Shown piece after piece: positions 23,243 through 38,248 of a DNA stretch of 45,734 nucleotides; within the stretch, counting starts at the first letter, position 1; each line of letters opens with the position of its first letter. The notes below the pieces were generated by a model. The model searched no databases and had not been told where the DNA came from. It saw only the letters and a list, made by a program, of their open reading frames with translations. The DNA comes from Bacillota bacterium (GTDB lineage Bacteria; Bacillota; Sulfobacillia; JAIMAT01): contig JASBVM010000012.1 of NCBI GenBank assembly GCA_029961055.1, forward strand, positions 119,741 to 165,474, in the 5' to 3' direction. The position numbers and the translations under genes were made by a program.

Positions 23243-24007
23243 TCAGCCGCGGCCTCTCTCCGCCCCGGGCCGGACCCGCGTCAGCCGCGAGGCGGCGCTC
23301 TCGTCCAGAAGGACCAGCGCGTCGGGGTGGAGCTGGAGGATCGAGGCGGGCACGTGGCGTGAGACCGGCCCCTCGATGGCGCGCTGGACGATCTCGGCCT
23401 TGTGCGGCCCGGCCGCCAGCAGGAGCAGGCGGCGGGCGTGCATGATGGTCCGTATGCCCATGCTGATGGCCCGCTGGGGCACCGCGTCGACCACGCCGCC
23501 GAAGTAGCGCGCGTTGTCCTGGCGCGTCTCCGGCTTCAGGCGGACGACCCGCGTCCCCCGCTCCCAGGGCGCCCCCGGCTCGTTGAAGCCGATGTGGCCG
23601 TCGCGGCCGATGCCCAGGAGCTGGAGATCGATGCCGCCGTGGGCCTCCACCGCCGCCTCGTAGCGCCGGCACTCGGCCTCCAGGTCCTCGGCCCAGCCGT
23701 CGGGGAGGTGGGTCGCCCCCGGCCGCAGGTTGACGTGCCGGAAGAGGTGCTCCTCCATGTAGGCGTGGTAGGAGCGGGGATCCCGCGGGTCGAGACCCAC
23801 GTACTCGTCCAGGTTGAAGGTGGTCACCCGCGAGAAGTCGACCCTTCCTTCCCGGTAGAGGCGGACCAGCTCGCGGTAGGTGCCCACGGGCGTCCCGCCG
23901 GTGGCCAGGCCGAGGACCAGGTCGGGCTTGCCCCGGATGGCGTCGGCGATGATCTCCGCCGCGCGGCGGCTCATGGCCTCCTCGTCCTCCAGGATCTCGA
24001 GCCTCAT
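23243..24007 (-). CDS. nagB: Glucosamine-6-phosphate deaminase
   Basis: A cytoplasmic 254-aa NagB, converting glucosamine-6-phosphate to fructose-6-phosphate and ammonia. Active-site residues are visible: D67 in FNLDEYVGL, and D136, H138 and E143 in GIGRDGHIGFNEPG. The phosphate loop GLATGGTPVG lies near residue 33. It is the last intact gene of the amino-sugar operon; its ATG overlaps the EI stop (ATGA). The length fits the short Gram-positive type without the allosteric C-terminal extension. It supplies the link from the imported amino sugar to glycolysis. Confidence 0.95.
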   Translation of the reverse strand: MRLEILEDEEAMSRRAAEIIADAIRGKPDLVLGLATGGTPVGTYRELVRLYREGRVDFSRVTTFNLDEYVGLDPRDPRSYHAYMEEHLFRHVNLRPGATHLPDGWAEDLEAECRRYEAAVEAHGGIDLQLLGIGRDGHIGFNEPGAPWERGTRVVRLKPETRQDNARYFGGVVDAVPQRAISMGIRTIMHARRLLLLAAGPHKAEIVQRAIEGPVSRHVPASILQLHPDALVLLDESAASRLTRVRPGAERGRG

Positions 24008-25866
24008 GGCCGGCCGGTCGGGGCGCCCCCGGCGCCCGGCTCCCGGGATTCCAGCGCTCGGCGGAAGGCCTCGACCCGCTCCTCGACCTCGGCGGCCGTG
24101 GAGCAGGCGAGCGCCTCTCCGGCCAGCTCCCGCGCCCGTGCCAGCGGGGTCCGCCGGACCTCCCGCTTCACCCGTCCCAGGGAGGCGGCGGCCATGCTCA
24201 GCTCGCGCACGCCCAGGCCCAGGAGGAGCGCCGTCGCCCGGGGGTCGCCGCCCATCTCGCCGCAGATGCCGCAGAGGATGCCCGCTTCCTCCGCCGCCTC
24301 GCCCACCAGGCCGATCAGCCGGAGCACCGCCGGGTGAAAGGGCTGGTAGAGGCCGACCACCCGCTCGTTGGTCCGGTCGGCGGCCAGGGTGTACTGGACC
24401 AGGTCGTTCGAGCCGATGCTGAAGAAGTCCACCTCCCGGGCCAGCTGCCGGGCGATCAGCGCGGCGGCCGGTATCTCCACCATGATCCCCAGCGGCACCC
24501 GGAGCTCCCGCGGGAAGCGCCCCTCCTCCACCAGCCCGGCGCGGACCTCGTCCAGCAGCCGGCGCGCCCCGCGCACCTCCTCCACCGTGGCCACCATGGG
24601 GAGCATGATCCGCGCCGGCGACACCCCGTCCGGGGCCGGCGCCTCCTCGGCGGCCGCCCGGAGGATGGCGCGCACCTGGGTGCGGAGGAGGTCGGGGTGC
24701 TCGAGGCCGATGCGGATGGCGCGGTAGCCCAGGAAGGGGTTGGCTTCCCGGGGCAGGTCAAGGGCGGGGACCGGTTTGTCCCCGCCGATGTCGAAGGTGC
24801 GGAAGATGACCGGACGGCCGCCCATGCCCCGCAGGACGCGGCGGTAGACCTCCACCTGCTCCTCCTCGCCGGGGAGCGTCTCGCGCCCGGTGACCAGGAA
24901 CTCCGTCCGGAAGAGGCCGACACCCTCGGCGCCCGCCTGGAGCGCCGGCTCCACGTCGCCGGGGCCGCCGATGTTGGCCACCAGCTCGACCCGGAGGCCG
25001 TCGGGCGTCACCGCGGGCTGGCCGGTCAACGCCGCCAGCTCGCGCCGCTCCGCCCGTTCCCGCCGCTCGGCGCGACGAAGCTGCTCGAGCTCCTCGCCCG
25101 CGGGCTCCACCCAGAGGTCGCCCGCCTCCCCGTCGACCGCCACCTGGACGCCCGGCGGCACCTGGTCGAGGAAGGCCCCCAGACCGAGCACCGCCGGCAC
25201 GCCCATGGAGCGGGCGAGGATGGCCACGTGCGAGGTCGGCCCGCCGCTGCCGAGCGCCAGGCCGGCCAGCGCCTCCCGGTCCAGGGCGAGGAGCGCCCCC
25301 GCGCCCAGCTCGCGGGCACAGAGGATGGAGCCGCGCGGCAGGTCGGCCAGCGGGATGGGCGGCTCGCCGGCCAGGGCGCGCAGGAGCGCCTCCCCCACCT
25401 CGCGGACGTCGTCCGCCCGCTGCCGCAGGTAGGCGTCCTCCAGCCCCGCGAAGAGCGCGGCGTACCGCTCGATGGCCGCCCGCGTCGCCGCCTCCGCCCG
25501 GCTCCCCGCCGCCACCGCCTCGCGCACCGCCTGCTCCAGCCCCGAGTCGTCCACCATCATCTGCTGCGCCTCGAGGATGGCGACGCCCTCCTCGGCGGCG
25601 CTCCCGGCGGCGCCGCCTGCGGAGAGCTGGCGCGCCCGCTCCACCAGCCGCGCGTAGGCCTCCTCCACCCGCCGGCGCGCATCCAACCAGCGGGCCACCT
25701 CCTGCTCCGGCGACGGGGCGGCGCCCTCGCCGCCTCCCGCCGTCCCGGCCGGACCGGCCGCCTCTTCCGCGTCGGCCCCGCCCCCGGCGACCGGAGCGAA
25801 GACGAAGGCGGGCCCCAGCGCCACGCCCGGCGCCCCGGCGACCCCGTGCAGCCGCCGTCCGGCCAT
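24004..25866 (-). CDS. ptsI: PTS enzyme I (phosphoenolpyruvate-protein phosphotransferase)
   Basis: The general PTS enzyme I takes phosphate from PEP and passes it to HPr. The 620-aa protein carries the phospho-histidine H213 in GGPTSHVAILARS, the PEP-binding FRTEFLV segment near residue 325, and the C-terminal IGSNDLVQYTLAADRTN and CGICGEMGGDP motifs. A low-complexity Gly/Ala/Glu insert at about residues 28-52 makes it longer than the usual ~575 aa. Its ATG overlaps the HPr stop by one base. Location inside a sugar-specific operon, rather than in a general pts operon, is unusual and makes this PTS self-contained. Confidence 0.95.
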   Translation of the reverse strand: MAGRRLHGVAGAPGVALGPAFVFAPVAGGGADAEEAAGPAGTAGGGEGAAPSPEQEVARWLDARRRVEEAYARLVERARQLSAGGAAGSAAEEGVAILEAQQMMVDDSGLEQAVREAVAAGSRAEAATRAAIERYAALFAGLEDAYLRQRADDVREVGEALLRALAGEPPIPLADLPRGSILCARELGAGALLALDREALAGLALGSGGPTSHVAILARSMGVPAVLGLGAFLDQVPPGVQVAVDGEAGDLWVEPAGEELEQLRRAERRERAERRELAALTGQPAVTPDGLRVELVANIGGPGDVEPALQAGAEGVGLFRTEFLVTGRETLPGEEEQVEVYRRVLRGMGGRPVIFRTFDIGGDKPVPALDLPREANPFLGYRAIRIGLEHPDLLRTQVRAILRAAAEEAPAPDGVSPARIMLPMVATVEEVRGARRLLDEVRAGLVEEGRFPRELRVPLGIMVEIPAAALIARQLAREVDFFSIGSNDLVQYTLAADRTNERVVGLYQPFHPAVLRLIGLVGEAAEEAGILCGICGEMGGDPRATALLLGLGVRELSMAAASLGRVKREVRRTPLARARELAGEALACSTAAEVEERVEAFRRALESREPGAGGAPTGRP

Positions 25867-26129
25867 CAGGCGCCGCTCCCCCTCAGGAAGGCTTCCAGCG
25901 CCCGCAGGGCCTCCTCCGCGTCCTCCCCCTCCACGCGCAGCCCCACCTCCGCGCCATGGTTGGCGCCCAGCGCCATCACCGCCATGATGCTCTTGCCGTC
26001 CGCCTGCCGCCCGTTCAGCTCCAGCCGCACGGTCGACCGGAAGCGGTTGGCCAGCTTGACGAACTCCGCCGCAGGACGCGCGTGCAGCCCCTCGGCCTGG
26101 CCGATCACCACCCGGGTCTCCTCCGTCAT
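25866..26129 (-). CDS. ptsH: Phosphocarrier protein HPr
   Basis: An 87-aa HPr. The phospho-accepting H16 is in EGLHARPAAEF. The regulatory serine region GKSIMAVMALGA (S47, equivalent to Ser46) is intact, so HPr kinase and CcpA-type carbon control are possible. It relays phosphate from EI to EIIA of the same operon. It overlaps ptsI by one base and lies 30 bp after nagA. Length and motifs are canonical. Confidence 0.95.
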   Translation of the reverse strand: MTEETRVVIGQAEGLHARPAAEFVKLANRFRSTVRLELNGRQADGKSIMAVMALGANHGAEVGLRVEGEDAEEALRALEAFLRGSGA

Positions 26130-26159: not shown

Positions 26160-27404
26160 CTAGCGGCCCGAACCGAAGCCCTCCCTCTCGAAGGCGAGCC
26201 GGCCCCTCGTCCACGTGGCGAGCACCTCGCCCTCCCGGTCCAGCGCCACCAGGTCCGCGTCCATGCCGGCGGCGATCCGCCCCTTGCGGCCGTCGACGCC
26301 GGCGATGCGGGCGGGCGTCCAGCTGGCCATGCGGATCGCCTCCTCCCAGGAGGCGCCGGCGCGGGTGACCATGGTCCGGACCGCGCGGTCCATGGTCAGC
26401 GTGCTCCCCGCCAGCGTCCCGTCCGGTAGCCGCACCGCCCCGTCGCGGACCACCACGCGGCGCCCGGTGAACTCGTACTCGCCGTCGCCCAGTCCCGCCG
26501 CCGCCACGGCGTCGGTGACCAGCGCCACCTCGTCGGCCCCCCGTGCCGCCAGGACCAGCCGCAGGACGGCGGGATGGAGGTGGATCCCGTCGGCGATCAC
26601 CTCCACCGTCGCCCGCCGGTCGGTCAGGAAGGCGCCGGGTACCCCCGGCGCCCGGTGGCCCACCGGCGTCATGGCGTCGAAGAGGTGGGTGCAGTGGCGC
26701 GCACCGCCGTCGATCGCCCGCTCCGCCTGCTCGTAGCTGGCCATGGTGTGGCCGACGCAGGCGATGATGCCGTGCGCCACCACCGCCGCCAGGAAGCGGC
26801 CGCCCGCATCCTCCTCCGGCGCGAAGTCGATCAGGCGGAGCCAACCCCGTCCCGCCTCCACCAGCCGCGCCAGCTCCCCGGTGTCGGGAGGGCGGATCGC
26901 CGGCTCGTACTGGGCGCCCTTCTTCGCCTTGCTGATGAAGGGGCCCTCCAGCCGGGCGCCCAGCACCTGGGCCGACGGCGGCTCGGGTCCCTCCTCGGCC
27001 AGCGCCGCGATCCGCCGCACCTGCTGCTCGGTCGGCCCGGGCAGCGTGCTGGCCACCGTGGGGAAGAAGGCGGTGACGCCGGTCCGCGGCAGCTCCCGCG
27101 CCATGGCGGCGATCTCCCCGGCGCTGCCGGTGGTCACGTCGTGGCCGCGGAAGGCGTGGGTGTGGAGGTCGATCAGGCCCGGCGCCAGCCATGCCTCCCC
27201 CAGGTCGATCACCCGGCCGGCCTCGCCCAGGCGGGCGGCGGCCTCCTCGGCGCCCGTCCCCCGCCAGAGATCGAGGATGCGCTGGCCGCGGAGCACCACC
27301 GTCACCGGGCCGGCCACCTCCTCCGGGGCATAGACCCGCCCGGCCACCAGCGCGGTCAGGCGCTCCCCGGGCCCTCCTGGCCGCCGGCTCGCTCCTGCTT
27401 CCAT
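26160..27404 (-). CDS. nagA: N-acetylglucosamine-6-phosphate deacetylase
   Basis: A 414-aa cytoplasmic amidohydrolase that removes acetate from N-acetylglucosamine-6-phosphate, feeding NagB. Family motifs: PGLIDLHTHAFRGHDVT near residue 75, metal ligand Glu in ARLEGPFISKAKKGA, His in CVGHTMASYEQAE, THLFDAMTP, and the catalytic Asp in ALVTDAV near residue 297. The N-terminal ~20 residues are low complexity and a later start is possible. It lies 7 bp after a HAD phosphatase gene. The substrate may be GlcNAc-6-P or a related N-acyl amino sugar phosphate. Confidence 0.93.
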   Translation of the reverse strand: MEAGASRRPGGPGERLTALVAGRVYAPEEVAGPVTVVLRGQRILDLWRGTGAEEAAARLGEAGRVIDLGEAWLAPGLIDLHTHAFRGHDVTTGSAGEIAAMARELPRTGVTAFFPTVASTLPGPTEQQVRRIAALAEEGPEPPSAQVLGARLEGPFISKAKKGAQYEPAIRPPDTGELARLVEAGRGWLRLIDFAPEEDAGGRFLAAVVAHGIIACVGHTMASYEQAERAIDGGARHCTHLFDAMTPVGHRAPGVPGAFLTDRRATVEVIADGIHLHPAVLRLVLAARGADEVALVTDAVAAAGLGDGEYEFTGRRVVVRDGAVRLPDGTLAGSTLTMDRAVRTMVTRAGASWEEAIRMASWTPARIAGVDGRKGRIAAGMDADLVALDREGEVLATWTRGRLAFEREGFGSGR

Positions 27405-27411
27405 CCTCGCT

Positions 27412-28320
27412 TCATCTCCCGCTGCGATGCTCGTCCCGGGCGAGGAGGTGGGCGACCGCCCAGGCCGCGCCGTCCTCCCGCGCCGCCGGCGCCACCACGT
27501 CCGCGTGGCGGCGGACCTCGCGGGGGGCGCCGCCCATCACCACCGCGTACCCGGCCGCCTTGAAGGCGGGGACGTCGTTGAAGTTGTCCCCCACCATCAC
27601 CGTCCGCCGGGGATCGATGCCGTGGAGCCGCGCCACCGCCAGGAGCGCCTCCCCCTTGTCGGAGCCGGGAGGAAGGAAATCCAGCGACGCCTCGGTCACC
27701 GCCTCCACCTGGAACTCCGGGAAGAGCGCGCGGTATCGCTCCCGCTCCGCCTCCAGCGCCTCCGGCCGGACCAGCACCGTCAGGTGGGTCGGGGGCGCGT
27801 CCAGCCGCTCCACCACCTCCAGCGTCCGCCGGACCGCCCGGAAGCCGACGCGCCGGAAGCGGAGCGCCCGCACCAGCCAGCCCAGCGCCCGTGCCTTCCC
27901 CAGGATGGGATCACGGGCGATCCGGTCGCGCCAGGTGCGCCAGCCGACGTACGCCTCCTCCACGCCATAGACCCAGAAGAGCGCCCGCTCCTCCTCCAGG
28001 AGGCGCACCGCCCGCAGCGCCGCCTCCCGTTCGAGCCGGCGGACGCGCAGGAGCTCGCCCCCGGGTGCCTGCGCCACCACCGCCCCGTTGGCGCAGGCGA
28101 CCGGCCCGGAGAACCAGGGGATCTGGCGCAGGATCGGCCGCAGCTCGGGCCAGGAGCGCCCCGTCAGGATGGTCAGGCGCCACCCCGCGGCCTGGGCCTG
28201 CTCCATCGCCTGGCGCACGCGGGGCGAGATCACGCCGCCGTACGGGATGAGCGTCCCGTCCACGTCGAAGGCCAGGAGTCCCGACCCCTCCTGCGCCTCG
28301 GGCTGCAGCCGCGCCTCCAA
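27412..28320 (-). CDS. HAD-superfamily (Cof-type) phosphatase
   Basis: A 302-aa HAD subfamily IIB hydrolase. Motif I is FDVDGTLIPYGG near residue 18 with the nucleophile Asp, motif II is TILTGRS, and motif IV is VMVGDNFNDVPAFKAAG near residue 240, with a cap domain between. Such enzymes dephosphorylate sugar phosphates and may relieve sugar-phosphate stress in this operon. The annotated start is TTG at 28320 with GAAGG directly upstream, which is very close. A CTG four codons later with GGAGG at better spacing is an alternative. It is 3 bp after the Gfo/Idh gene. Confidence 0.85.
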   Translation of the reverse strand: MEARLQPEAQEGSGLLAFDVDGTLIPYGGVISPRVRQAMEQAQAAGWRLTILTGRSWPELRPILRQIPWFSGPVACANGAVVAQAPGGELLRVRRLEREAALRAVRLLEEERALFWVYGVEEAYVGWRTWRDRIARDPILGKARALGWLVRALRFRRVGFRAVRRTLEVVERLDAPPTHLTVLVRPEALEAERERYRALFPEFQVEAVTEASLDFLPPGSDKGEALLAVARLHGIDPRRTVMVGDNFNDVPAFKAAGYAVVMGGAPREVRRHADVVAPAAREDGAAWAVAHLLARDEHRSGR

Positions 28321-28323
28321 CCT

Positions 28324-29265
28324 TCACCACCCGACCCTCTGCCGGATCTCGTCGGCCAGCCGCTCCGTCCGCAACGCCGACCGCCCGTCGTCTGCCTGCC
28401 TCCAGGCGGCCACCCGCCCCAGGAAGTGGGCGATCGCCCCCTCGAATCCCCGCCGCCGCGCGACGCTCTCCCAGGCGCCGCTCTCGCGGCGCAGCCAACC
28501 GGGCTGGCCGGGGAGGGCGAGTTCCAGACGCTCCAGGCCCTCCACCCGCGCGCTCCGCCCGCCGGCGCCCCACAACTCCAGCCGCTCGCTGTCGGCTCCG
28601 GCGCCGCGGACCATGGCCACCACCGCGCTCGCCGGACCCTCCCCCTCCAGGCCCACCACCAGGCGGAGGAGATGGCCCTCGTCGTCGCACCGCGCCTGCA
28701 CCCAGCCCAGGCGATCGGCGCCCAGCTGGACCGCCAAGTCGAGGGGATGGACGAAGTCGTCCCACAGGTCGTGGAGAGCGCTGAACGGCCCCGGGACCGC
28801 GCGGTGCTTCTCCGCCAGCACCCAGACCGGTCCGGGCACCGCCGCGCGCGCCGCCTCTACCAGGGGCGCCCAGCGGCGATTATACCCCACCACCAGCGGC
28901 GCCCCGGAGCGGCGCGCCGCCTCCACGATCCGTTCCGCCTCCTCCAGCCGGTAGGCCAGCGGCTTGTCCAGGTAGACCGCCAGCCCCGCCTCCAGGAGCG
29001 GCACCGCCACCGCCGCGTGCGCCTCGGTGGCCACGTGGACGAAGGCGGCCACGATCCCTTCCTCGCGCCAGCGGCGCGCCAGCGCGGCGTCGATCGGCTC
29101 CGCGCTCCAGCGCCGGAAGCCCCACCGCCGGGCCGCCGCCTCCGCCCGCTCCGGCCGCCGGGCCCAGAGGAGCTCCCGCTCCACCCGGCCGCCGGAGGCC
29201 AGAAGCGGCAGGTAGACCCGCTCCGCGATGGAGCCTGGGCCGGCGAGCAGGACCCTGGGAGGCAC
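28324..29265 (-). CDS. Gfo/Idh/MocA-family oxidoreductase
   Basis: A 313-aa NAD(P)-dependent oxidoreductase of the glucose-fructose oxidoreductase/inositol dehydrogenase family. The Rossmann N-terminus VLLAGPGSIAERVYLPLL departs from the usual GxGxxG (GPGSIA). The EKP-type catalytic motif appears as YLDKPLAYRLEEAE near residue 98, with Asp for the usual Glu and Lys conserved. A C-terminal substrate domain follows, slightly shorter than typical. It starts at GTG with AGGAGG upstream. In this operon it could oxidise or epimerise the imported sugar or its derivative; the substrate is unknown. Confidence 0.85.
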   Translation of the reverse strand: MPPRVLLAGPGSIAERVYLPLLASGGRVERELLWARRPERAEAAARRWGFRRWSAEPIDAALARRWREEGIVAAFVHVATEAHAAVAVPLLEAGLAVYLDKPLAYRLEEAERIVEAARRSGAPLVVGYNRRWAPLVEAARAAVPGPVWVLAEKHRAVPGPFSALHDLWDDFVHPLDLAVQLGADRLGWVQARCDDEGHLLRLVVGLEGEGPASAVVAMVRGAGADSERLELWGAGGRSARVEGLERLELALPGQPGWLRRESGAWESVARRRGFEGAIAHFLGRVAAWRQADDGRSALRTERLADEIRQRVGW

Positions 29266-29287: not shown

Positions 29288-30055
29288 TCAGACTCGCCCC
29301 GCGTAGTGCCGGCGGAGCTCTTCGTTCCGCTCCCTCCCGCCGGGCACGTTGACGGAGATGAGCACAGGCGGCCGCTGGCCGCGTTCGAGGAGCAGCCCCA
29401 CGATCTCCGCCGTCAGCATCTGGGCGATCAGCGCACCGGTCAGCGAGGAGACCGAGCAGGCGCGCCCGCCGCCCGGCAGGTCCAGAAGCGCGTCCCCGAA
29501 GGGCCCGCAGTTGTCCACCACCACGTCCGCCAGCTCGACCAGCTTCTTCCCGCTCTCGTGGCGCGACTCCACCTGCCGCGTGTGCTCCAGCGAGGTGACC
29601 GCCACCAGCGGGTAACCGCCCTCCTTCGCCCGCAGCGCCACCTCGACGACGGCCGGGTTGACGCCCGAGTTGGAGGCGATGATGAAGGCGTCGTGGGGCT
29701 CCAGCCGGTGGAGCGCCAGGAGCGCCCGCCCCGCCTCCGGGTCGCGCTCCAGCTCCGGGTCGAAGACGCGCTCGGGAGGCCAGCCCGCCAGCACCAGCTG
29801 CTCGAGGCTCATCATGTCGAAGGGGACGAGCCCGCCTGCCCGGTTGGCCAGTTCCATGGCGAAGGCGCGGGAGTGGCCCGTGCCGAAGGCATGGATCACG
29901 CCGTCCTGCTCGATGCGGCCGGCGAAGAGCTCCGCCGCCCTGCGGACCGCCTCGCCCTGCGTCGCCACCACGCGCTCCAGCACCTCCGAGGCCCGGCGCC
30001 AGAAGAGCTCCTTCCCGAAACGCTCCCCTCCCCGGCCGTCAAGCCTTCCCGTCAT
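29288..30055 (-). CDS. SIS-domain sugar isomerase-like protein (UPF0309 type), copy 2
   Basis: A 255-aa SIS-fold protein resembling UPF0309 sugar isomerase-domain proteins. Phosphosugar-binding motifs are FGTGHSRAFAMELANRAGG near residue 56, IIASNSGVNPAVVE near 125, and AVTSLEHTRQVESRHESGK near 150. It is a divergent paralogue of the gene just upstream, with which it overlaps by 17 bp. I chose ATG 30055 because AAGGGGG lies nine bases upstream; a TTG three codons earlier is possible. Expected role: isomerisation or deamination-type chemistry on an amino-sugar phosphate. The reaction is not established for this family. Confidence 0.85.
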   Translation of the reverse strand: MTGRLDGRGGERFGKELFWRRASEVLERVVATQGEAVRRAAELFAGRIEQDGVIHAFGTGHSRAFAMELANRAGGLVPFDMMSLEQLVLAGWPPERVFDPELERDPEAGRALLALHRLEPHDAFIIASNSGVNPAVVEVALRAKEGGYPLVAVTSLEHTRQVESRHESGKKLVELADVVVDNCGPFGDALLDLPGGGRACSVSSLTGALIAQMLTAEIVGLLLERGQRPPVLISVNVPGGRERNEELRRHYAGRV

Positions 30056-30857
30056 CCGCTCCAACCCCCTTCGCGACGCTTCGCCGCAGCCGCTCGTACG
30101 CGTCAGGAAGCCTGCCCGTCCAGCGCAGGAGCAACGCGCGGTTGGCTTCCTCGGCGCCCGGGACGTTGCCCGAGCGGAGGACCGGCGGCTCCGCCCCTTC
30201 CTCCAGCAACCGCTCCGCGGTGGCCAGGACCAGCGCCTGGAGGAGCCAGGCGCCGACCACCGTCGAGGTGGCGGCCACGCGCAGGCCCGGACGCAGCTCC
30301 ATCACCGCGTCCCCCGGCTCGCCCAGGTTGTCCAGGACCACGTCGGCCACCTCGAAGAGCCGCCGCCCCGAGGGCGCCAGCGAGGCGACCGAGCGCGAGT
30401 GGGCGAGCGAGGTCAGGGCGATGACCGGCATCCCGCGGCTCCGCGCCCATTCCGCCGCCTCCACCGGCACGGCGTTCCGGCCGGAGTTGGAGATGACCAG
30501 GAGCACGTCCCGCTCCGGGTCGACGGCCGCATGCTCCAGGAGGATGGCGGCCACGCCGGGCAGCTTCTCCCAGTCGCCGGAGGCGACCGCGTCCTCATGG
30601 AGCATGAGCGGCGCCGACTCGATCACCTGCACCGGGAGCAGGCCGCCTGCCCGGGAGTAGATCTCCTCGGCCAGCAGGTGGGAGTGGCCGGTGCCCAGCA
30701 GGTGGAGGAGACCGCCCCGCGCGAGGCTTTCCGCCACCAGCCGGGCGGCCTGCCCGATCGCCTCGCCCTGCTCCTCGGCGGCCGCCCGGATCATGCCGCT
30801 CACCCGCTCGGCGAAGAGCGCCACCCGTTCCGACCCCTTCTCCGTCGCCCCGGTCAT
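30039..30857 (-). CDS. SIS-domain sugar isomerase-like protein (UPF0309 type), copy 1
   Basis: A 272-aa SIS-fold protein closer to the UPF0309 consensus than its neighbour. Motifs are LGTGHSHLLAEEIYSRAGG near residue 55, ESAPLMLHEDAV, VISNSGRNAVPVEAAEW near 120, and ALTSLAHSRSV. Its ATG overlaps the stop of the ceramidase-like gene (ATGA), so the two are co-translated. The pair of SIS paralogues could form a hetero-oligomer or act on two different phosphosugars. A regulatory SIS role is unlikely because there is no DNA-binding domain. Confidence 0.85.
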   Translation of the reverse strand: MTGATEKGSERVALFAERVSGMIRAAAEEQGEAIGQAARLVAESLARGGLLHLLGTGHSHLLAEEIYSRAGGLLPVQVIESAPLMLHEDAVASGDWEKLPGVAAILLEHAAVDPERDVLLVISNSGRNAVPVEAAEWARSRGMPVIALTSLAHSRSVASLAPSGRRLFEVADVVLDNLGEPGDAVMELRPGLRVAATSTVVGAWLLQALVLATAERLLEEGAEPPVLRSGNVPGAEEANRALLLRWTGRLPDAYERLRRSVAKGVGADDGKA

Positions 30858-32215
30858 GCCCCCGCGCCTCCCTCTCCGTGCTCGCCGCCCGCCGCGACCT
30901 CGAGAGCCGCCAGAAGCTCCCGGAAGGCGGAGACCATCTCCTCCGCGGCGCCGGGCCCGAAGGGGCTGGTCAGCACCTCGTAGTCGGCCTGGCCGTAGGC
31001 CGACGCCTCCGGAATGTAGCCCAGGTAGCCGTTGGCGTAGCCCAGCAGCAGGGTGGGCCGGCCGCCGGACCGCCGGATGGCGTCCCCGGGACGGTGATAG
31101 AGCTCGCCTGGGACGGCCGCCAGGCGGAGCTCCCCCCAGGCCGCCGCGGCCAGCTCGGCTTCCAGGTCGAGGGAGCCGAGCCGGTCGGAGAGCCTCCGGA
31201 CCGCCTCCACCCCCTGGAGCGCGGTGACCACGGTCCGCGCCTCGGCCTGGCGCCCGGCTCGCCGCGCCGCCTCCAGGCGCGCCCGCAACTCGCTCTCGGT
31301 CCGCTCCAGGAGGACGGGGTCAGGCGGCTCCTTGGGCGCGAAGCGACGGAGCCGGCTTGCCGCGACCGGACCTCCCGGCGCGAGAGGGCGCCTGCGGGGG
31401 AGGAGCTCGAGGGCGCGATCGGCCAGGAGGCCGCCCAGCCGCTCCACCTCCGCGAAATCCTGCCCCCTGCGGGTGTGCCGGGTGCTGACGTCGCCCGCCG
31501 CCCCGGTGGCCAGCGCCACCCACGTTCGATCGTCCAGCCTCTCCCCCAGCCGGCGCCGGAAGGCGCCGGGGAGGTCGGACGAGATCTCCAGGTTCGACTC
31601 GCCCAGCACCGTCGGGTGGCAGGGGAAGCTGCCGAAGACCGCCAGCGGCTTCCCGGAGGTGTCGCCGTCCGCCGGGTCGAGGATCAGCAGGTCGAGGTCG
31701 AGCTCGGCCCCTTCCTGGGGATGGTCGCGGGGCGTCCCCACCCCGGCGGCCGGCGCCGAGACCCAGGCCGGGCGGACGGGCCGCAGGGAGCCGGATGCCG
31801 CTTCGGCCGCCTCCAGCACGGCGGCCAGGACGGCCTCCTCCACCTCCGGATCGGAGGGGCCGTCGGAGAGGCGCCCCAGCCCGACGTCCGGCCCGGAGTG
31901 GGTGTGCGTCGCCGCAAGCCAGAGCCGGGCACCGGGTCGCCTCGCCTGGAGGCGCCGCCGCGCCTCCGCCACCAGGCCGGCGTCCACCGCCAGCAGGTCG
32001 GCCACGGCCAGGATCAGGGGCTGCCCGGAACCGGCCGCTCCGTCCTCCGGGTCGCCCAGCGCCAGCGCCCGCACCTCGAGGGGGTCGTGGACCGCGCGGG
32101 CGGGCTCCCGGCGGGCCGCGTAGCCACCCATGGCGACGGGCGGCCGGAGCCGGACGGACGCCGTCGCCCAGCCGGCCCGGGCGGCGCGGGCCGGTCGCTC
32201 CCGCCCCGCGCTCAT
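30854..32215 (-). CDS. Neutral ceramidase-like zinc amidase, cytoplasmic
   Basis: A 453-aa protein matching the neutral/alkaline ceramidase N-terminal fold. Features expected for the zinc site are present: H104/H106 in THTHSGPD, H200 in FPCHPTVLG, E371 in AVPGELYH, and tyrosines in the GYANGYLGYIP loop near residue 393-400. The nucleophile motif appears as GDVS with S244 (GDVSPN in true ceramidases; here GDVSTR). There is no signal peptide, and it is far shorter than secreted ceramidases (~650-750 aa), so it acts in the cytoplasm. Overlaps of 4 bp on both sides tie it to EIIB and a SIS gene. An N-acyl amino sugar is a plausible substrate, not a sphingolipid. Confidence 0.75.
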   Translation of the reverse strand: MSAGRERPARAARAGWATASVRLRPPVAMGGYAARREPARAVHDPLEVRALALGDPEDGAAGSGQPLILAVADLLAVDAGLVAEARRRLQARRPGARLWLAATHTHSGPDVGLGRLSDGPSDPEVEEAVLAAVLEAAEAASGSLRPVRPAWVSAPAAGVGTPRDHPQEGAELDLDLLILDPADGDTSGKPLAVFGSFPCHPTVLGESNLEISSDLPGAFRRRLGERLDDRTWVALATGAAGDVSTRHTRRGQDFAEVERLGGLLADRALELLPRRRPLAPGGPVAASRLRRFAPKEPPDPVLLERTESELRARLEAARRAGRQAEARTVVTALQGVEAVRRLSDRLGSLDLEAELAAAAWGELRLAAVPGELYHRPGDAIRRSGGRPTLLLGYANGYLGYIPEASAYGQADYEVLTSPFGPGAAEEMVSAFRELLAALEVAAGGEHGEGGAGA

Positions 32216-32703
32216 AGGCCGTTCCGTTTCAGGAGCTCCAGGAAGTCGGTGGGGCGGTCGCTGGGCATCATCCGGCAGGTGAGCGTGTAGCCCTGCGCCG
32301 CGATCTTCCGGTAGATCTCGGCTTCCTCGGGAGTCACCGCGATGGAGTGGGTCACCATCTTGAACCTGGTGCCCGGCGCGGGCGCCTGGTTCCCCACGTT
32401 GACCTCGCCCGGCTTCAGCCCGCCCTCCAGGAGCCTGAGCGCATCCGAAGGAAGCTTGGCGATGACGAAAACCTTCTCTTTCTGACCCTGGGGGCTCTGG
32501 GCGAACGCCAGCGTCTCCTCCACGGAGAGGATGGACGTGGGCACCCCCCGCGCCGCCTGGGGCAGGAGCAGCTTCTGGACGGGATCCTTGGCCACGTCGT
32601 CGTTGGTGACCACGATCCGGTCCGCGCCCACCGCGCCCACCCAGCTGGTCGTCACCTGGCCGTGGATCAGCCGGTTGTCGATCCGCATGTGCACGACCGC
32701 CAC
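32212..32703 (-). CDS. PTS mannose-family EIIB component
   Basis: Cytoplasmic EIIB of a mannose/fructose/sorbose-family PTS (163 aa). The phospho-histidine is H14 in RIDNRLIHGQV. The remaining sequence (KLLLPQAARGVPTSI, VNVGNQAPAPG) follows the family. It accepts phosphate from EIIA and transfers it to the sugar entering through EIIC/EIID. GTG 32703 is chosen because GGAGGGGGG lies about seven bases upstream and the resulting length is typical; an ATG seven codons earlier would place the ribosome site inside the gene. Its stop overlaps the ceramidase-like start. Confidence 0.9.
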   Translation of the reverse strand: MAVVHMRIDNRLIHGQVTTSWVGAVGADRIVVTNDDVAKDPVQKLLLPQAARGVPTSILSVEETLAFAQSPQGQKEKVFVIAKLPSDALRLLEGGLKPGEVNVGNQAPAPGTRFKMVTHSIAVTPEEAEIYRKIAAQGYTLTCRMMPSDRPTDFLELLKRNGL

Positions 32704-32736
32704 ATCATTCCCCCCTCCGGGCATCCCGCCCGCCCT

Positions 32737-33144
32737 TCAGCCCGCGCCCCCCGAGAGGCGGGCGCCCAGGTCGGTGACCCCCTGGCGGCCCGCCTCCAGC
32801 GCTGCGGCCGCCAGCTCCAGCGGGCCCGCCGACTCGCGGCGCATGAGCACCTCGAGCAGCATGGGCAGGTTGACGCCGCAGATGACCGGCGTGCCGGCCA
32901 GGGCCGCGTAGCCGCTGGCGTTGGACGGGCTGCCGCCCAGCATGTCGGCCAGGATCAGGCCGCCGTCCGCGCCTTCCGAGACGCGGGCGAGCGCGCCCTC
33001 GATCTCCGCCCGCAACGCTTCGACGTCGGCCGCCGCATCCATGCCGACAGCCGCCAGACGCTCCTGGGGGCCGACGATCATCTCGGCCGCCCCCTTCAGC
33101 CCCTCGGCCAGCGGGCCGTGCGAGACCAGGACCACGCCCACCAC
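32737..33144 (-). CDS. PTS mannose-family EIIA component
   Basis: EIIA of the mannose-family PTS (135 aa from this start). The phospho-histidine is H9 in VVLVSHGPLAEGLKGAAEM. LADMLGGSPSNAS near residue 68 is the family's second hallmark. An ATG at 33207 would add 21 low-complexity residues and has no ribosome site, so I prefer the GTG at 33144, which has a run of G residues 12 bases upstream. It receives phosphate from HPr of the same operon. It is separate from EIIB here, unlike the fused E. coli ManX. Confidence 0.88.
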   Translation of the reverse strand: MVGVVLVSHGPLAEGLKGAAEMIVGPQERLAAVGMDAAADVEALRAEIEGALARVSEGADGGLILADMLGGSPSNASGYAALAGTPVICGVNLPMLLEVLMRRESAGPLELAAAALEAGRQGVTDLGARLSGGAG

Positions 33145-33217
33145 GTCGGTCAGACCCCCCCGCCAGGCGAGGGTGCGCCCGCCGCCGGAGGCGGGACGCA
33201 CCCTCATCCGATGGATC

Positions 33218-34081
33218 TCAGAGCACGCCGAGCGCGCTCAGGCCGAAGCCGACCACGAAGAGGACGACCATCACCCAGACCGGCGAAAGCCGCAGCCCGC
33301 GCAGGAGCCAGTAGGCGAAGGCGACCAGCAGGACCGGGATCAGGTAGGGCACGATCTGGTCGAGGACCGACTGGATCTTGACCACCTGCTCGGTCACCTT
33401 GCCCTGGACGGTCACCCTGCGGGCGAACTCGAGCGGCGTCTGCACCTTGGCCATGATGCTGGGCACGAAGCCGCCGATGACGATGACGCCCATCAGCGTG
33501 GCCAGGTCGGTGATGCGCGTCACCAGCCCGCCCTCCGCCACCTGCGCGGCCAGGCCCACGCCCTCGCGGTAGCCGAGCCGGAAGAGCGGGATCATGAGCG
33601 CCGTCCAGAGCAGCCCGGAGAGGAACATGAGCAGAGGTCCTCCCAGGCTCCCCGACAGCGCCATGGAGGCGGCGAAGACGGCGATGATGGGCCGGTAGAG
33701 CACGGCCTGGAGCGTGTCGCCGATGCCGGCCAGCGGGCCCATCAGGGCCACCTTCAGGCTGTCCACCATCTGGCCCTGCTTCTGTGCCTCCAGCGCCACC
33801 GTCGCCCCGAAGATGGGTGGCGAGCCGACCTGCGGGTTGGTGTTGTAGAAGGCCAGGTGCCGCTTCATGGCGGCGATCCGCTCTTCCTTGGTCTTGTAGA
33901 CCTTGTCGATCACGGGCAGCATCGAGTAGCAGTAGCCCAGCGCCTGCATCCGCTCGTAGTTCCAGGACCACTGCAGCGTGAGGATGTGCCGCCACATGGC
34001 GCTGCGGACGGTCGCCTGATCCAGCTCCATCGGCCCCTCGCCGCCGCCGTCGACGGGACGGTTCTCCACCGGCTCAGACAT
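33218..34081 (-). CDS. PTS mannose-family EIID component
   Basis: Membrane EIID subunit (287 aa). Family features include WNYERMQALGYCYSMLPV near residue 40, YNTNPQVGSPPIFGATVALE near 78, and KVALMGPLAGIGDTLQ near 110. The C-terminal third has the hydrophobic helices. With EIIC it forms the translocation channel. It overlaps the EIIC stop by 8 bp. Substrate specificity in this family cannot be read reliably from sequence; context indicates an amino sugar. Confidence 0.93.
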   Translation of the reverse strand: MSEPVENRPVDGGGEGPMELDQATVRSAMWRHILTLQWSWNYERMQALGYCYSMLPVIDKVYKTKEERIAAMKRHLAFYNTNPQVGSPPIFGATVALEAQKQGQMVDSLKVALMGPLAGIGDTLQAVLYRPIIAVFAASMALSGSLGGPLLMFLSGLLWTALMIPLFRLGYREGVGLAAQVAEGGLVTRITDLATLMGVIVIGGFVPSIMAKVQTPLEFARRVTVQGKVTEQVVKIQSVLDQIVPYLIPVLLVAFAYWLLRGLRLSPVWVMVVLFVVGFGLSALGVL

Positions 34082-34820
34082 TGGACTGCCCCCCCGCCTG
34101 CACCATGTTGACGATGAAGCCGACAGCCACGGCCAGAAGCGCGATGCCGATGACCGGCATCTTGAGGTAGGCGAAGAGGATGAATCCCAGGAGCAGGAAC
34201 GGCCAGTACCTCTTCAGCGGCAGCTGCGAGAGCAGGAGCGCGAAGCCCAGGGCGGGCAGGATCCGGCCGGTGGTGGTCATGCCGTCGGTGAACCATGCGG
34301 GCATGGAGTGGACCAGCGACTGGATCGGGCCCGCGCCCAGCCAGACCGCCAGGAAGATGGGGATCGCCCGGGTGAGACCCCATGGGATCTGTCCCAGGAA
34401 GTGCATCCAGGCGAGGCCGCGCTCGTTGCCTTCCTCGGCGTACCGGTCGGCCGCATGGATGAAGAAGGTGGTGACGGCACGACCGAGCACGTCCATCTGC
34501 GTCATCAGCAGGGCGGTGGGGACGGCCACGGCCAGGCCGGCCGACATGCCGCCGCCGAGCGCGCCGATCGCCGTGCCGATGATGGCGCCGGTCTGGAAGT
34601 CCGGGATGGTCGCCCCGCCGTAGGTCCAGAGGCCCAGCGACATCAGCGTCAGGGTGGCTCCGATGGTGAGCCCCAGGGGCAGATCCCCGACGATCAGGCC
34701 GGTGACCGCACCGGCGATGAGCGCCTCCTGCCACCAGAGCCCGGGGCCCAGCTGGAGCACGATGCCGACGTAGCCCCAGAGGGCCAGCGCCGCCGCCACC
34801 CAGATCGGATAACCTTCCAT
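34074..34820 (-). CDS. PTS mannose-family EIIC component
   Basis: Membrane EIIC subunit (248 aa) with 7-8 hydrophobic segments. Family motifs include GLIVGDLPLGLTIGATLTLM near residue 40 and GAIIGTAIGALGGGMSAGLA near 75. The ATG at 34820 has GAGGAGGGA upstream at good spacing; an ATG 20 codons earlier lies almost on the gntR stop. The 63-bp gap after gntR contains no obvious terminator, so gntR and the PTS genes are probably one transcript. Confidence 0.93.
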   Translation of the reverse strand: MEGYPIWVAAALALWGYVGIVLQLGPGLWWQEALIAGAVTGLIVGDLPLGLTIGATLTLMSLGLWTYGGATIPDFQTGAIIGTAIGALGGGMSAGLAVAVPTALLMTQMDVLGRAVTTFFIHAADRYAEEGNERGLAWMHFLGQIPWGLTRAIPIFLAVWLGAGPIQSLVHSMPAWFTDGMTTTGRILPALGFALLLSQLPLKRYWPFLLLGFILFAYLKMPVIGIALLAVAVGFIVNMVQAGGQSNV

Positions 34821-34883
34821 CGATTCGTCCCTCCTCGCGGGACCACGGCCCGCCGCCTCATCCGGGCGGACGGGCTGCATCCT

Positions 34884-35768
34884 TTACACCTCTCCGTTCC
34901 TCCCCGCGGCCTCGCCGGGGCCGTCACCCCCTTCCTGCCTTCCGACCGCCGCGCCGGGTGCCGCGCTCCACGGGCGGCGCAACTCGACCTGGAAGCGGTA
35001 TCGATCTCCCCGGTAGTATGACCGGACGAACTCCAGCGGCACTCCGTCCTGGTCCAGCGTCAGGCGCGTCATGCGGAGAAGCGGCGCGCCGGGCTCGACC
35101 CCCAGGAGACTCGCCTGCTCCGGTCCCGCCCGGCACGCTTCCAGCGTCTGCGTGGCCCGGGTGGGCCGGCGCCCCCAGCGCCCGGCGAGGAGCTGGTAGA
35201 GCGAGCCCTCCAGCACCTCTTCCGGCAGCTCCTCCAGGCCGGGCAGCCGGAGGATGGGCAGGTGGTTGATCTCCAGCGCCATGGGCCTCCCGTCCGCCAG
35301 GCGGAGCCGCTTCAGGTAGAGGACCGGCTCTCCCCGGCGGAGGCCGAGGAGGCGCTGCGCCTCGGCGTCGGGCAGGCGCCGGCCGACCGCGAGCAGCCGG
35401 CTCGACGGCCGCAGCCCCAACGCCCGCATGTCCTCGGTGAACGAGGTGAGCCCCTGCAGCTGCTGGCGCACCTTGGCCTGCGCGACGAAGCTGCCGCGGC
35501 CCACCTGCCGCTCGGCCAGGCCCAGGTCGACCAGCTCCTGCAACGCGCGCCGGCAGGTCATCCGGCTGACGCCGTATCGCTCCGCCAGCTCCCGTTCCGA
35601 GGGAAGCCTCGCCCCCACCGCGAGCCGGCCGGTCTGGATCGCCTCCAGGAGGTGGCCGAGGATCTGCTCGTGATAGGGGCGCCCGGGGTCGAGCCGGACG
35701 CCCCGCCGTCCGCCCCGCGTCGCAGAGCTTCCACCCCCGACAGCCTCCGGCTCCCGGCGCTCCTCCAT
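34884..35768 (-). CDS. GntR/HutC-family regulator with UTRA domain
   Basis: A 294-aa transcription factor and first gene of the amino-sugar operon. The winged HTH spans about residues 28-95 (LPSERELAERYGVSRMTCRR, then ALQELVDLGLAERQVGRGSF), followed by a UTRA effector domain to about residue 265. NagR/DasR-type members of this family bind amino-sugar phosphates and release DNA. A perfect palindrome of the right type lies 49 bp upstream of the start, supporting autoregulation and control of the whole operon. The start is uncertain: the ATG at 35768 has only a weak ribosome site and a GTG three codons earlier is possible. Confidence 0.9.
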   Translation of the reverse strand: MEERREPEAVGGGSSATRGGRRGVRLDPGRPYHEQILGHLLEAIQTGRLAVGARLPSERELAERYGVSRMTCRRALQELVDLGLAERQVGRGSFVAQAKVRQQLQGLTSFTEDMRALGLRPSSRLLAVGRRLPDAEAQRLLGLRRGEPVLYLKRLRLADGRPMALEINHLPILRLPGLEELPEEVLEGSLYQLLAGRWGRRPTRATQTLEACRAGPEQASLLGVEPGAPLLRMTRLTLDQDGVPLEFVRSYYRGDRYRFQVELRRPWSAAPGAAVGRQEGGDGPGEAAGRNGEV

Positions 35769-37408: not shown

Positions 37409-38248
37409 GTGGTGAGGGACGGGGTGCGGCCTGTCCTCTTCCTGAGCGACTTCGGCGCGTCGGAATACCCCGGGATCTGCCGGGCGGTGATCGCCTCCAT
37501 CGCGCCGGAGGTGCCGGTGATCGACCTGAGTCATCACGTGCCGCCCTTCGACGTGGCGGCGGGCGCCCTGGTGGCGATGGACGCCGCTCCCTATGCACCG
37601 CCGGGCAGCGTCTGGCTGGCGGTGGTCGACCCCGGCGTCGGCGGCGGGCGGCGGGCCGTGGTGGTGCTGGCGGCGCGCGGCGACCTGCTGGTGGGACCCG
37701 ACAACGGCCTGCTCATGGCCGCGGCCGCCGCCCTGGGTGGGGTGAAGGGCGCCTGGAGCCTGGAGAATCCCGCCTACCGGCTGCCCGGGCTCTCCTCCAC
37801 CTTCCACGGCCGTGACCTCTTCGCGCCGGCGGCCGCCCACCTGGCGAAGGGTCTCCCGCCGGAGGCCATGGGACCCCCGGTGGAGCCCGAGAGCCTGCTC
37901 CCCGCCCCGCTCCCGGAGCCGCGGCTGGAGAAGGCGCCCGAGCCGCGCCTGATCGCCACGGTGATCCTCTTCGACCCCTTCGGGTCGGCGCGGTTGCGCG
38001 CACCGGCCCGGCTCCTCGGCGACCTCGGACTGGCCCCCGGGCGGCCGGCGCGGCTGGCGGCGGGCGGCCGGAGCTGGCGGCTGCCCGTGGCCCGCACCTT
38101 CGGCGACGTGCCCGAGGGTGCAGCGCTCTTACTCGAGGACTCGTCCGGCGATATCCTGGTGGCAGTCCACCGTGGCAGCGCCCGGCGCGAGTTGGGGCTC
38201 CAGCGCGGCCAGGAGGTGGAAATCGCCCCGCTGCGGGGAGGCGTCTGA
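37409..38248 (+). CDS. SAM hydroxide adenosyltransferase (DUF62 / SAM-dependent chlorinase-fluorinase family)
   Basis: A 279-aa member of the DUF62 family, which hydrolyses S-adenosylmethionine to adenosine and methionine using a D-R-H triad. Seen: LFLSDFGASEYPG near residue 10, VVDPGVGGGRRAVV near 72 (triad Asp and Arg), GPDNGLL near 95, and STFHGRDLFAPAAA near 130 (triad His). The true halogenases have a characteristic insertion I do not see, so hydrolase function is favoured. Start is one of two adjacent GTG codons, one base after the SDR-like stop. It leads into a DUF1614 gene 3 bp downstream. Confidence 0.88.
   Translation: MVRDGVRPVLFLSDFGASEYPGICRAVIASIAPEVPVIDLSHHVPPFDVAAGALVAMDAAPYAPPGSVWLAVVDPGVGGGRRAVVVLAARGDLLVGPDNGLLMAAAAALGGVKGAWSLENPAYRLPGLSSTFHGRDLFAPAAAHLAKGLPPEAMGPPVEPESLLPAPLPEPRLEKAPEPRLIATVILFDPFGSARLRAPARLLGDLGLAPGRPARLAAGGRSWRLPVARTFGDVPEGAALLLEDSSGDILVAVHRGSARRELGLQRGQEVEIAPLRGGV

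Follow-up and report, generated by a model that had tools for sequence, protein, structure and literature searches.

A ceramidase-fold protein beside NagS-family SIS genes in a bacterial amino-sugar PTS operon: a probable amidase of phosphorylated N-acyl amino sugars

The operon around the ceramidase-like gene

The gene under study, hereafter CER, occupies positions 30854-32215 of the window (i.e., the whole 45,734-nucleotide stretch of Bacillota DNA analysed) and encodes a protein of 453 aa. The initial annotation had given the same coordinates and length without a strand, which is the minus strand. CER belongs to an amino-sugar operon of 14 same-strand genes separated by short gaps or overlaps, with nearly all of the 13 gene junctions below 31 bp. 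The overlaps of 4 nt between the EIIB and CER genes, and again of 4 nt between CER and the first SIS gene, agree with the translational coupling to EIIB and a SIS protein that had been proposed. From head to tail, the operon contains the following genes:

34884..35768, minus strand: GntR-type regulator at the operon head, start codon approximate; family from the sequence and homologues, not from a profile search
34074..34880, minus strand: PTS EIIC, AgaW-like (PF03609)
33218..34081, minus strand: PTS EIID (PF03613)
32737..33207, minus strand: PTS EIIA of the mannose family, AgaF-like (profile match)
32212..32724, minus strand: PTS EIIB of the mannose/sorbose family, overlapping CER (PF03830)
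30854..32215, minus strand: CER, predicted ceramidase-fold zinc amidase, no signal peptide or Ig-like domain, R246/R249 (GDVSTRHTRR) subtype (sequence searches and model)
30039..30857, minus strand: SIS1, UPF0309/PRK02947, NagS family (NF002805, 272 bits, cut-off 135; 9eol, E 2.9e-34)
29288..30064, minus strand: SIS2, second UPF0309/NagS-family protein (NF002805, 271 bits, cut-off 135; 9eol, E 1.8e-28)
28324..29265, minus strand: Gfo/Idh/MocA oxidoreductase (PF01408), missing in the sister genome (L030)
27412..28320, minus strand: HAD-family phosphatase of the Cof type (PF08282)
26160..27404, minus strand: NagA, GlcNAc-6P deacetylase (TIGR00221, 280 bits, cut-off 226)
25866..26129, minus strand: HPr-like phosphocarrier (sequence and same-place homologue in the sister genome, not a profile search)
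24004..25866, minus strand: PTS enzyme I (EI), 620 aa, start approximate (sequence and comparison with the sister genome, not a profile search)
23243..24007, minus strand: NagB, GlcN-6P deaminase (PF01182; TIGR00502 match at the same place, E 3.2e-93)

A mannose-family PTS, a NagA-type deacetylase and a SIS protein are also found together in aga (GalNAc) operons. However, AgaS belongs to another SIS family, aga operons hold no ceramidase-fold protein, and no tagatose-phosphate aldolase was recognised in the window operon. Note that a divergent neighbouring gene (37409-38248, plus strand) resembles, by eye, SAM-hydrolysing DUF62 proteins.

Fold and catalytic residues of CER

As a single sequence, CER matched the neutral ceramidase of P. 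aeruginosa (2zws) in phmmer with an E-value of 5.5e-7, while a profile of 13 CER homologues searched against PDB sequences retrieved 2zws (2.3e-34) and the human enzyme 4wgk (3.1e-28) and no other PDB entry. The AlphaFold2 model of CER (pLDDT 87.9) aligned with 2zws over 390 residues at 2.9 Å (Z 41.8) and with 4wgk at Z 39.1, the next unrelated structure reaching Z 6.5. The resemblance to neutral ceramidases first seen by eye is thus borne out by both the profile and the model. Indeed, this homology is visible to standard annotation, and neither it nor the fold is new: two plasmid-borne CER homologues already carry a ceramidase name, and the ceramidase family profile (PF04734) matches 12 of the 13 aligned homologues (E up to 0.001, best 1.3e-32). 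CER itself scores 28.8 bits against this profile, just below the Pfam gathering score of 32.1, and a PF04734 profile search of the window's own genome gave no match.

The motifs noticed at first, THTHSGPD (H104/H106), FPCHPTVLG (H200), GDVS (S244), PGELYH (E371) and GYANGYLGYIP, are all present at the positions first given. In the alignments, eight residues of CER are equivalent to catalytic residues of human neutral ceramidase (ASAH2): H104 to H194, H106 to H196, R163 to R257, H200 to H303, S244 to S354, E371 to E540, Y400 to Y579 and Y412 to Y591. The model as a whole fits 2zws, and the zinc ligands (H194, H303 and E540 in 4WGK) correspond to CER residues as judged from alignments. Roles in the human enzyme have been described for H196, R257, Y579, Y591 and S354 (PMC6952831), and the label of nucleophile initially attached to S244 is doubtful, this residue not being established as such. 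Among 73 CER homologues with the arginine pair discussed below (RR type), H104, H106, R163, H200, S244 and E371 are 100% conserved and Y400/Y412 99% conserved; judged from these alignments, the catalytic apparatus as a whole is conserved relative to neutral ceramidase.

Neutral ceramidases have at least 646 aa and a C-terminal domain, whereas the 453-aa CER lacks the C-terminal Ig-like domain, its model spanning residues 1-490 of the 646-residue 2zws chain. The CER N-terminus (MSAGRERPARAARAG) has no hydrophobic stretch and no signal peptide, as had been read at first, and most homologues likewise start 3-14 residues ahead of the first core strand. Our results thus support the assignment of CER to a branch of the neutral-ceramidase fold that is cytoplasmic. 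That CER is an ordinary ceramidase or lipid amidase lying beside sugar genes by chance would fit the fold and the mapped catalytic residues, but we consider it highly improbable given the missing signal peptide and Ig-like domain, the basic pair R246/R249 behind the conserved Ser and a sugar context that recurs among amino-sugar import genes of many lineages.

Gene neighbourhood and SIS partners

A scan of genome contigs with the single CER protein gave no matches; an alignment-based scan, blind to gene context, worked and recovered 154 CER relatives; the 80 best entered the survey. Since simple GC-frame gene calling performed poorly at low-GC loci (e.g., L033 and L089), the adjacency counts rest on tblastn. 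Around the best 80 of these 154 relatives, a UPF0309/NagS-family SIS gene lay within 6 kb at 52 loci, NagA at 28, a mannose-family PTS at 28, a NagK-like kinase at 28 and NanE at 20. In the window's class, 22/154 genomes hold a CER homologue; at least 8 families are represented by homologues that sit in mannose-PTS operons together with SIS, NagA or NagB. Actinomycete operons carry an ABC importer, a GlcNAc-kinase-like protein and NanE in place of the PTS, and PTS and kinase have been swapped at least 8 times on the phylogenetic tree. The link of CER to sugar genes, claimed in the initial annotation from one locus, is therefore not local and extends across unrelated bacteria and some archaea, whereas the identity of the SIS partner as a NagS/UPF0309 protein had been missed. 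With sugar genes found beside homologues and the zinc ligands aligning, none of the outcomes named at first as refuting the proposal was observed. In archaea, CER lies near a SIS gene and NagA in Desulfurococcales (L084:1878-8992), together with GlmS, and in Thermococcus (L098).

The UPF0309/NagS-family SIS gene is the tightest association of CER. In a phylum sample of 398 evenly drawn genomes, UPF0309 exceeded the cut-off in 29 of the 35 CER-positive genomes and in 39 of the 363 CER-negative ones (raw counts, uncorrected for relatedness); it lay within 6 kb of CER in 26 of these 35 genomes and within 300 bp in 14. The six CER genomes of the sample lacking UPF0309 never carry a CER of the Ser-Arg-Arg type. 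UPF0309 was also present in 30/30 genomes from a second list of CER carriers, even where no copy adjoins CER.

Among characterised proteins, SIS1 and SIS2 are most closely related to SCO4393 (NagS, PDB 9EOL), a Streptomyces enzyme reported in 2025 that dehydrates GlcNAc-6P to 6P-chromogen I and depends on the acetyl group as well as on the phosphate of its substrate (PMC12680351). At 33-36% identity to NagS, both proteins conserve H53, R64, E94, D179 and N228 as well as the phosphate serines S119 and S121, while S91 is replaced by Gly in SIS1 and by Pro in SIS2. Among 56 aligned SIS sequences, mostly CER partners, the NagS-essential H53, R64, E94 and D179 are present in all and N228 in 55, and Ser91 is not kept. 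Since UPF0309 homologues of 26-36% identity showed no or almost no activity towards GlcNAc-6P (PMC12680351) and Ser91 is missing, the substrate of SIS1 and SIS2 may differ from GlcNAc-6P. Note that the same genome holds a third UPF0309/NagS-family gene (G000:C47:57463-58185; L160:9455-10255, minus strand) with no ceramidase-like gene; it adjoins a LytR-CpsA-Psr protein, with an aldo/keto reductase and a class-III aminotransferase nearby.

Two candidate phosphate sites, one in each partner, were compared across loci. The pair R246/R249 stands right behind the conserved Ser, is invariant in the 73 homologues and is the candidate phosphate site of CER. Among the best 80 of 154 relatives, a PTS or kinase gene lies within 6 kb of 56 of the 66 RR-type CER genes and of none of the 14 non-RR genes. 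In NagS, the phosphate is held by Ser119/Ser121; the SIS partner has both serines in 47/47 loci with an RR-type CER, while Asn/Tyr occupy positions 119/121 in 14 of the 17 loci with a non-RR CER and in none with the RR type. Overwhelming as it looks in raw counts, this pattern comes down to about three changes on the tree and loses significance once relatedness is corrected for; we consider it suggestive that CER and SIS alter their candidate phosphate sites jointly, in operons where no phosphorylating step is recognised. One set of variant operons (L099, L100, L114, L116 and L117, mostly Devosia, and L101 and L129) has the order NagB-SIS-NagA-CER-ABC importer, with NagB lacking in L101 and L129. 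Their CER has neither the Arg pair nor the conserved Ser, which is replaced by Asn, their SIS lacks the phosphate serines, and their NagA shows QVNG instead of the metal-binding HxHG. The idea that the NagA phosphate site follows the same pattern was unsupported, as the REPG Arg persists in the NagA of non-RR operons, which is a divergent subtype.

A proposed route and competing readings

Taken with the fold, the Arg pair, the accompanying PTS or kinase and the SIS serines suggest that CER is quite likely a zinc amidase acting on a phosphorylated N-acyl amino-sugar metabolite of the pathway to which its SIS partner belongs. That CER acts on an imported amino-sugar phosphate, as originally put forward, is thus probable. 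In the route that we propose, the PTS would bring in an N-acyl amino sugar in phosphorylated form, a task that in relatives would fall to an ABC importer and a NagK-like kinase; a NagS-family SIS enzyme would act next on the N-acyl amino-sugar phosphate through C2-C3 dehydratase-type chemistry as in NagS; and CER, as a cytosolic zinc-dependent amidase, would hydrolyse the N-acyl amide of the compound that SIS makes or of an intermediate close to it. NagA and NagB of the same operon would serve the ordinary route from GlcNAc-6P to fructose-6P. We judge this scheme as a whole, from import through a NagS-type step to a ceramidase-fold amidase working on a small sugar substrate, to be somewhat favoured by the evidence. 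Since the tightest association of CER is with a NagS-family SIS gene, its substrate may be a dehydrated derivative and not a differently acylated sugar. In addition, NagS binds GlcNAc-6P but not GlcN-6P (PMC12680351), so that a deacylase is more naturally placed downstream of it; the order of SIS first and CER second, with a dehydrated amide resembling 6P-chromogen I as the substrate, is nonetheless put forward tentatively. A deaminated 3-deoxy product could conceivably leave the pathway through KDPG aldolase, but this enzyme was rejected as a common outlet, being absent from the window's genome and from 4 of 22 other genomes.

NagA hydrolyses an amide in the same operon, as CER is predicted to do, but it belongs to the amidohydrolase superfamily and the two folds are unrelated. 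We rejected CER as a replacement for NagA, since NagA exceeds the cut-off in 31/32 CER-holding genomes and accompanies CER in the window operon; the same count fits the early idea of a substrate that NagA cannot handle. NagB passes its cut-off in 10/32 CER genomes, yet it is present in the window operon. In a simpler reading, the direct substrate of CER would be an intact N-acyl hexosamine 6-phosphate that NagA handles poorly owing to its acyl group or configuration (e.g., N-glycolyl or a ManNAc-type epimer), and SIS would work elsewhere in the pathway. By our own chemical reasoning, the 1,3-oxygenated 2-acylamido head group of ceramide resembles C1-C3 of an N-acyl hexosamine; moreover, NanE lies near CER at 20 of the 80 loci counted above, and Kribbella-type operons contain transporter, kinase, NanE and CER with the SIS gene not nearby. 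We nevertheless hold direct hydrolysis to be rather doubtful, because the NagS-family SIS gene remains the closest partner of CER, NagS needs the acyl group in place (PMC12680351), and the joint change of the candidate phosphate residues suggests that SIS and CER probably share one metabolite.

In another reading, MurQ-like SIS lyases would remove a 3-O substituent and CER would cut an amide within it (muramyl peptide or muramic lactam), thereby feeding NagA and NagB. NagS is phylogenetically related to MurQ (PMC12680351), the NagA and NagB of the window operon would complete such a route, and genuine MurQ is absent from the window's genome. This reading is unlikely, however, as genuine MurQ is also present in 14/23 CER genomes and the surveyed operons hold no peptide transporter or peptidase.

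In a further reading, SIS and CER would not serve the use of a new sugar but would rid the cell of a dehydrated compound formed from GlcNAc-6P as a toxic side product (6P-chromogen I or its imine). Both 6P-chromogen I, which Streptomyces NagA can deacetylate, and its deacetylated product have been tied to toxicity in Streptomyces (PMC12680351), and the products could be disposed of through the HAD and Gfo/Idh genes. Such damage control is improbable in our view: dedicated sugar importers adjoin the genes in most lineages, which suggests catabolism, and in Streptomyces NagS makes 6P-chromogen I and does not remove it.

Returning to the favoured route, what is new is the gene context and probably the substrate class. 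The NagS paper describes no ceramidase-like partner (PMC12680351), and our literature search, with most subscription journals outside its scope, returned no paper that ties PTS or amino-sugar operons to any homologue of ceramidase. It is conceivable, and we advance it with reserve, that Bacillota, Chloroflexota, Actinomycetota and some archaea share an undescribed pathway in which a NagS-type SIS protein dehydrates an N-acyl amino-sugar 6-phosphate and a ceramidase-fold zinc amidase cleaves the resulting amide. If true, NagS-like chemistry would serve catabolism generally instead of being peculiar to Streptomyces, the ceramidase fold would extend from lipids to sugar phosphates, and many non-Streptomyces UPF0309 proteins that lack a substrate in the NagS paper (PMC12680351) would gain a partner and a testable role. 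The question of which SIS product the ceramidase-fold enzyme would then cut is within reach of two purified proteins.

Two further operons carry an additional gene after CER and SIS. In the first, a GH84-type beta-N-acetylglucosaminidase (PF07555; L075:12075-13823) follows the pair, a hint that GlcNAc-containing glycans are the source of the sugar. In the second, from Jatrophihabitans, a histidinol-dehydrogenase family protein (PF00815; L063:11991-13271) comes directly after them and may oxidise a product of the pathway.
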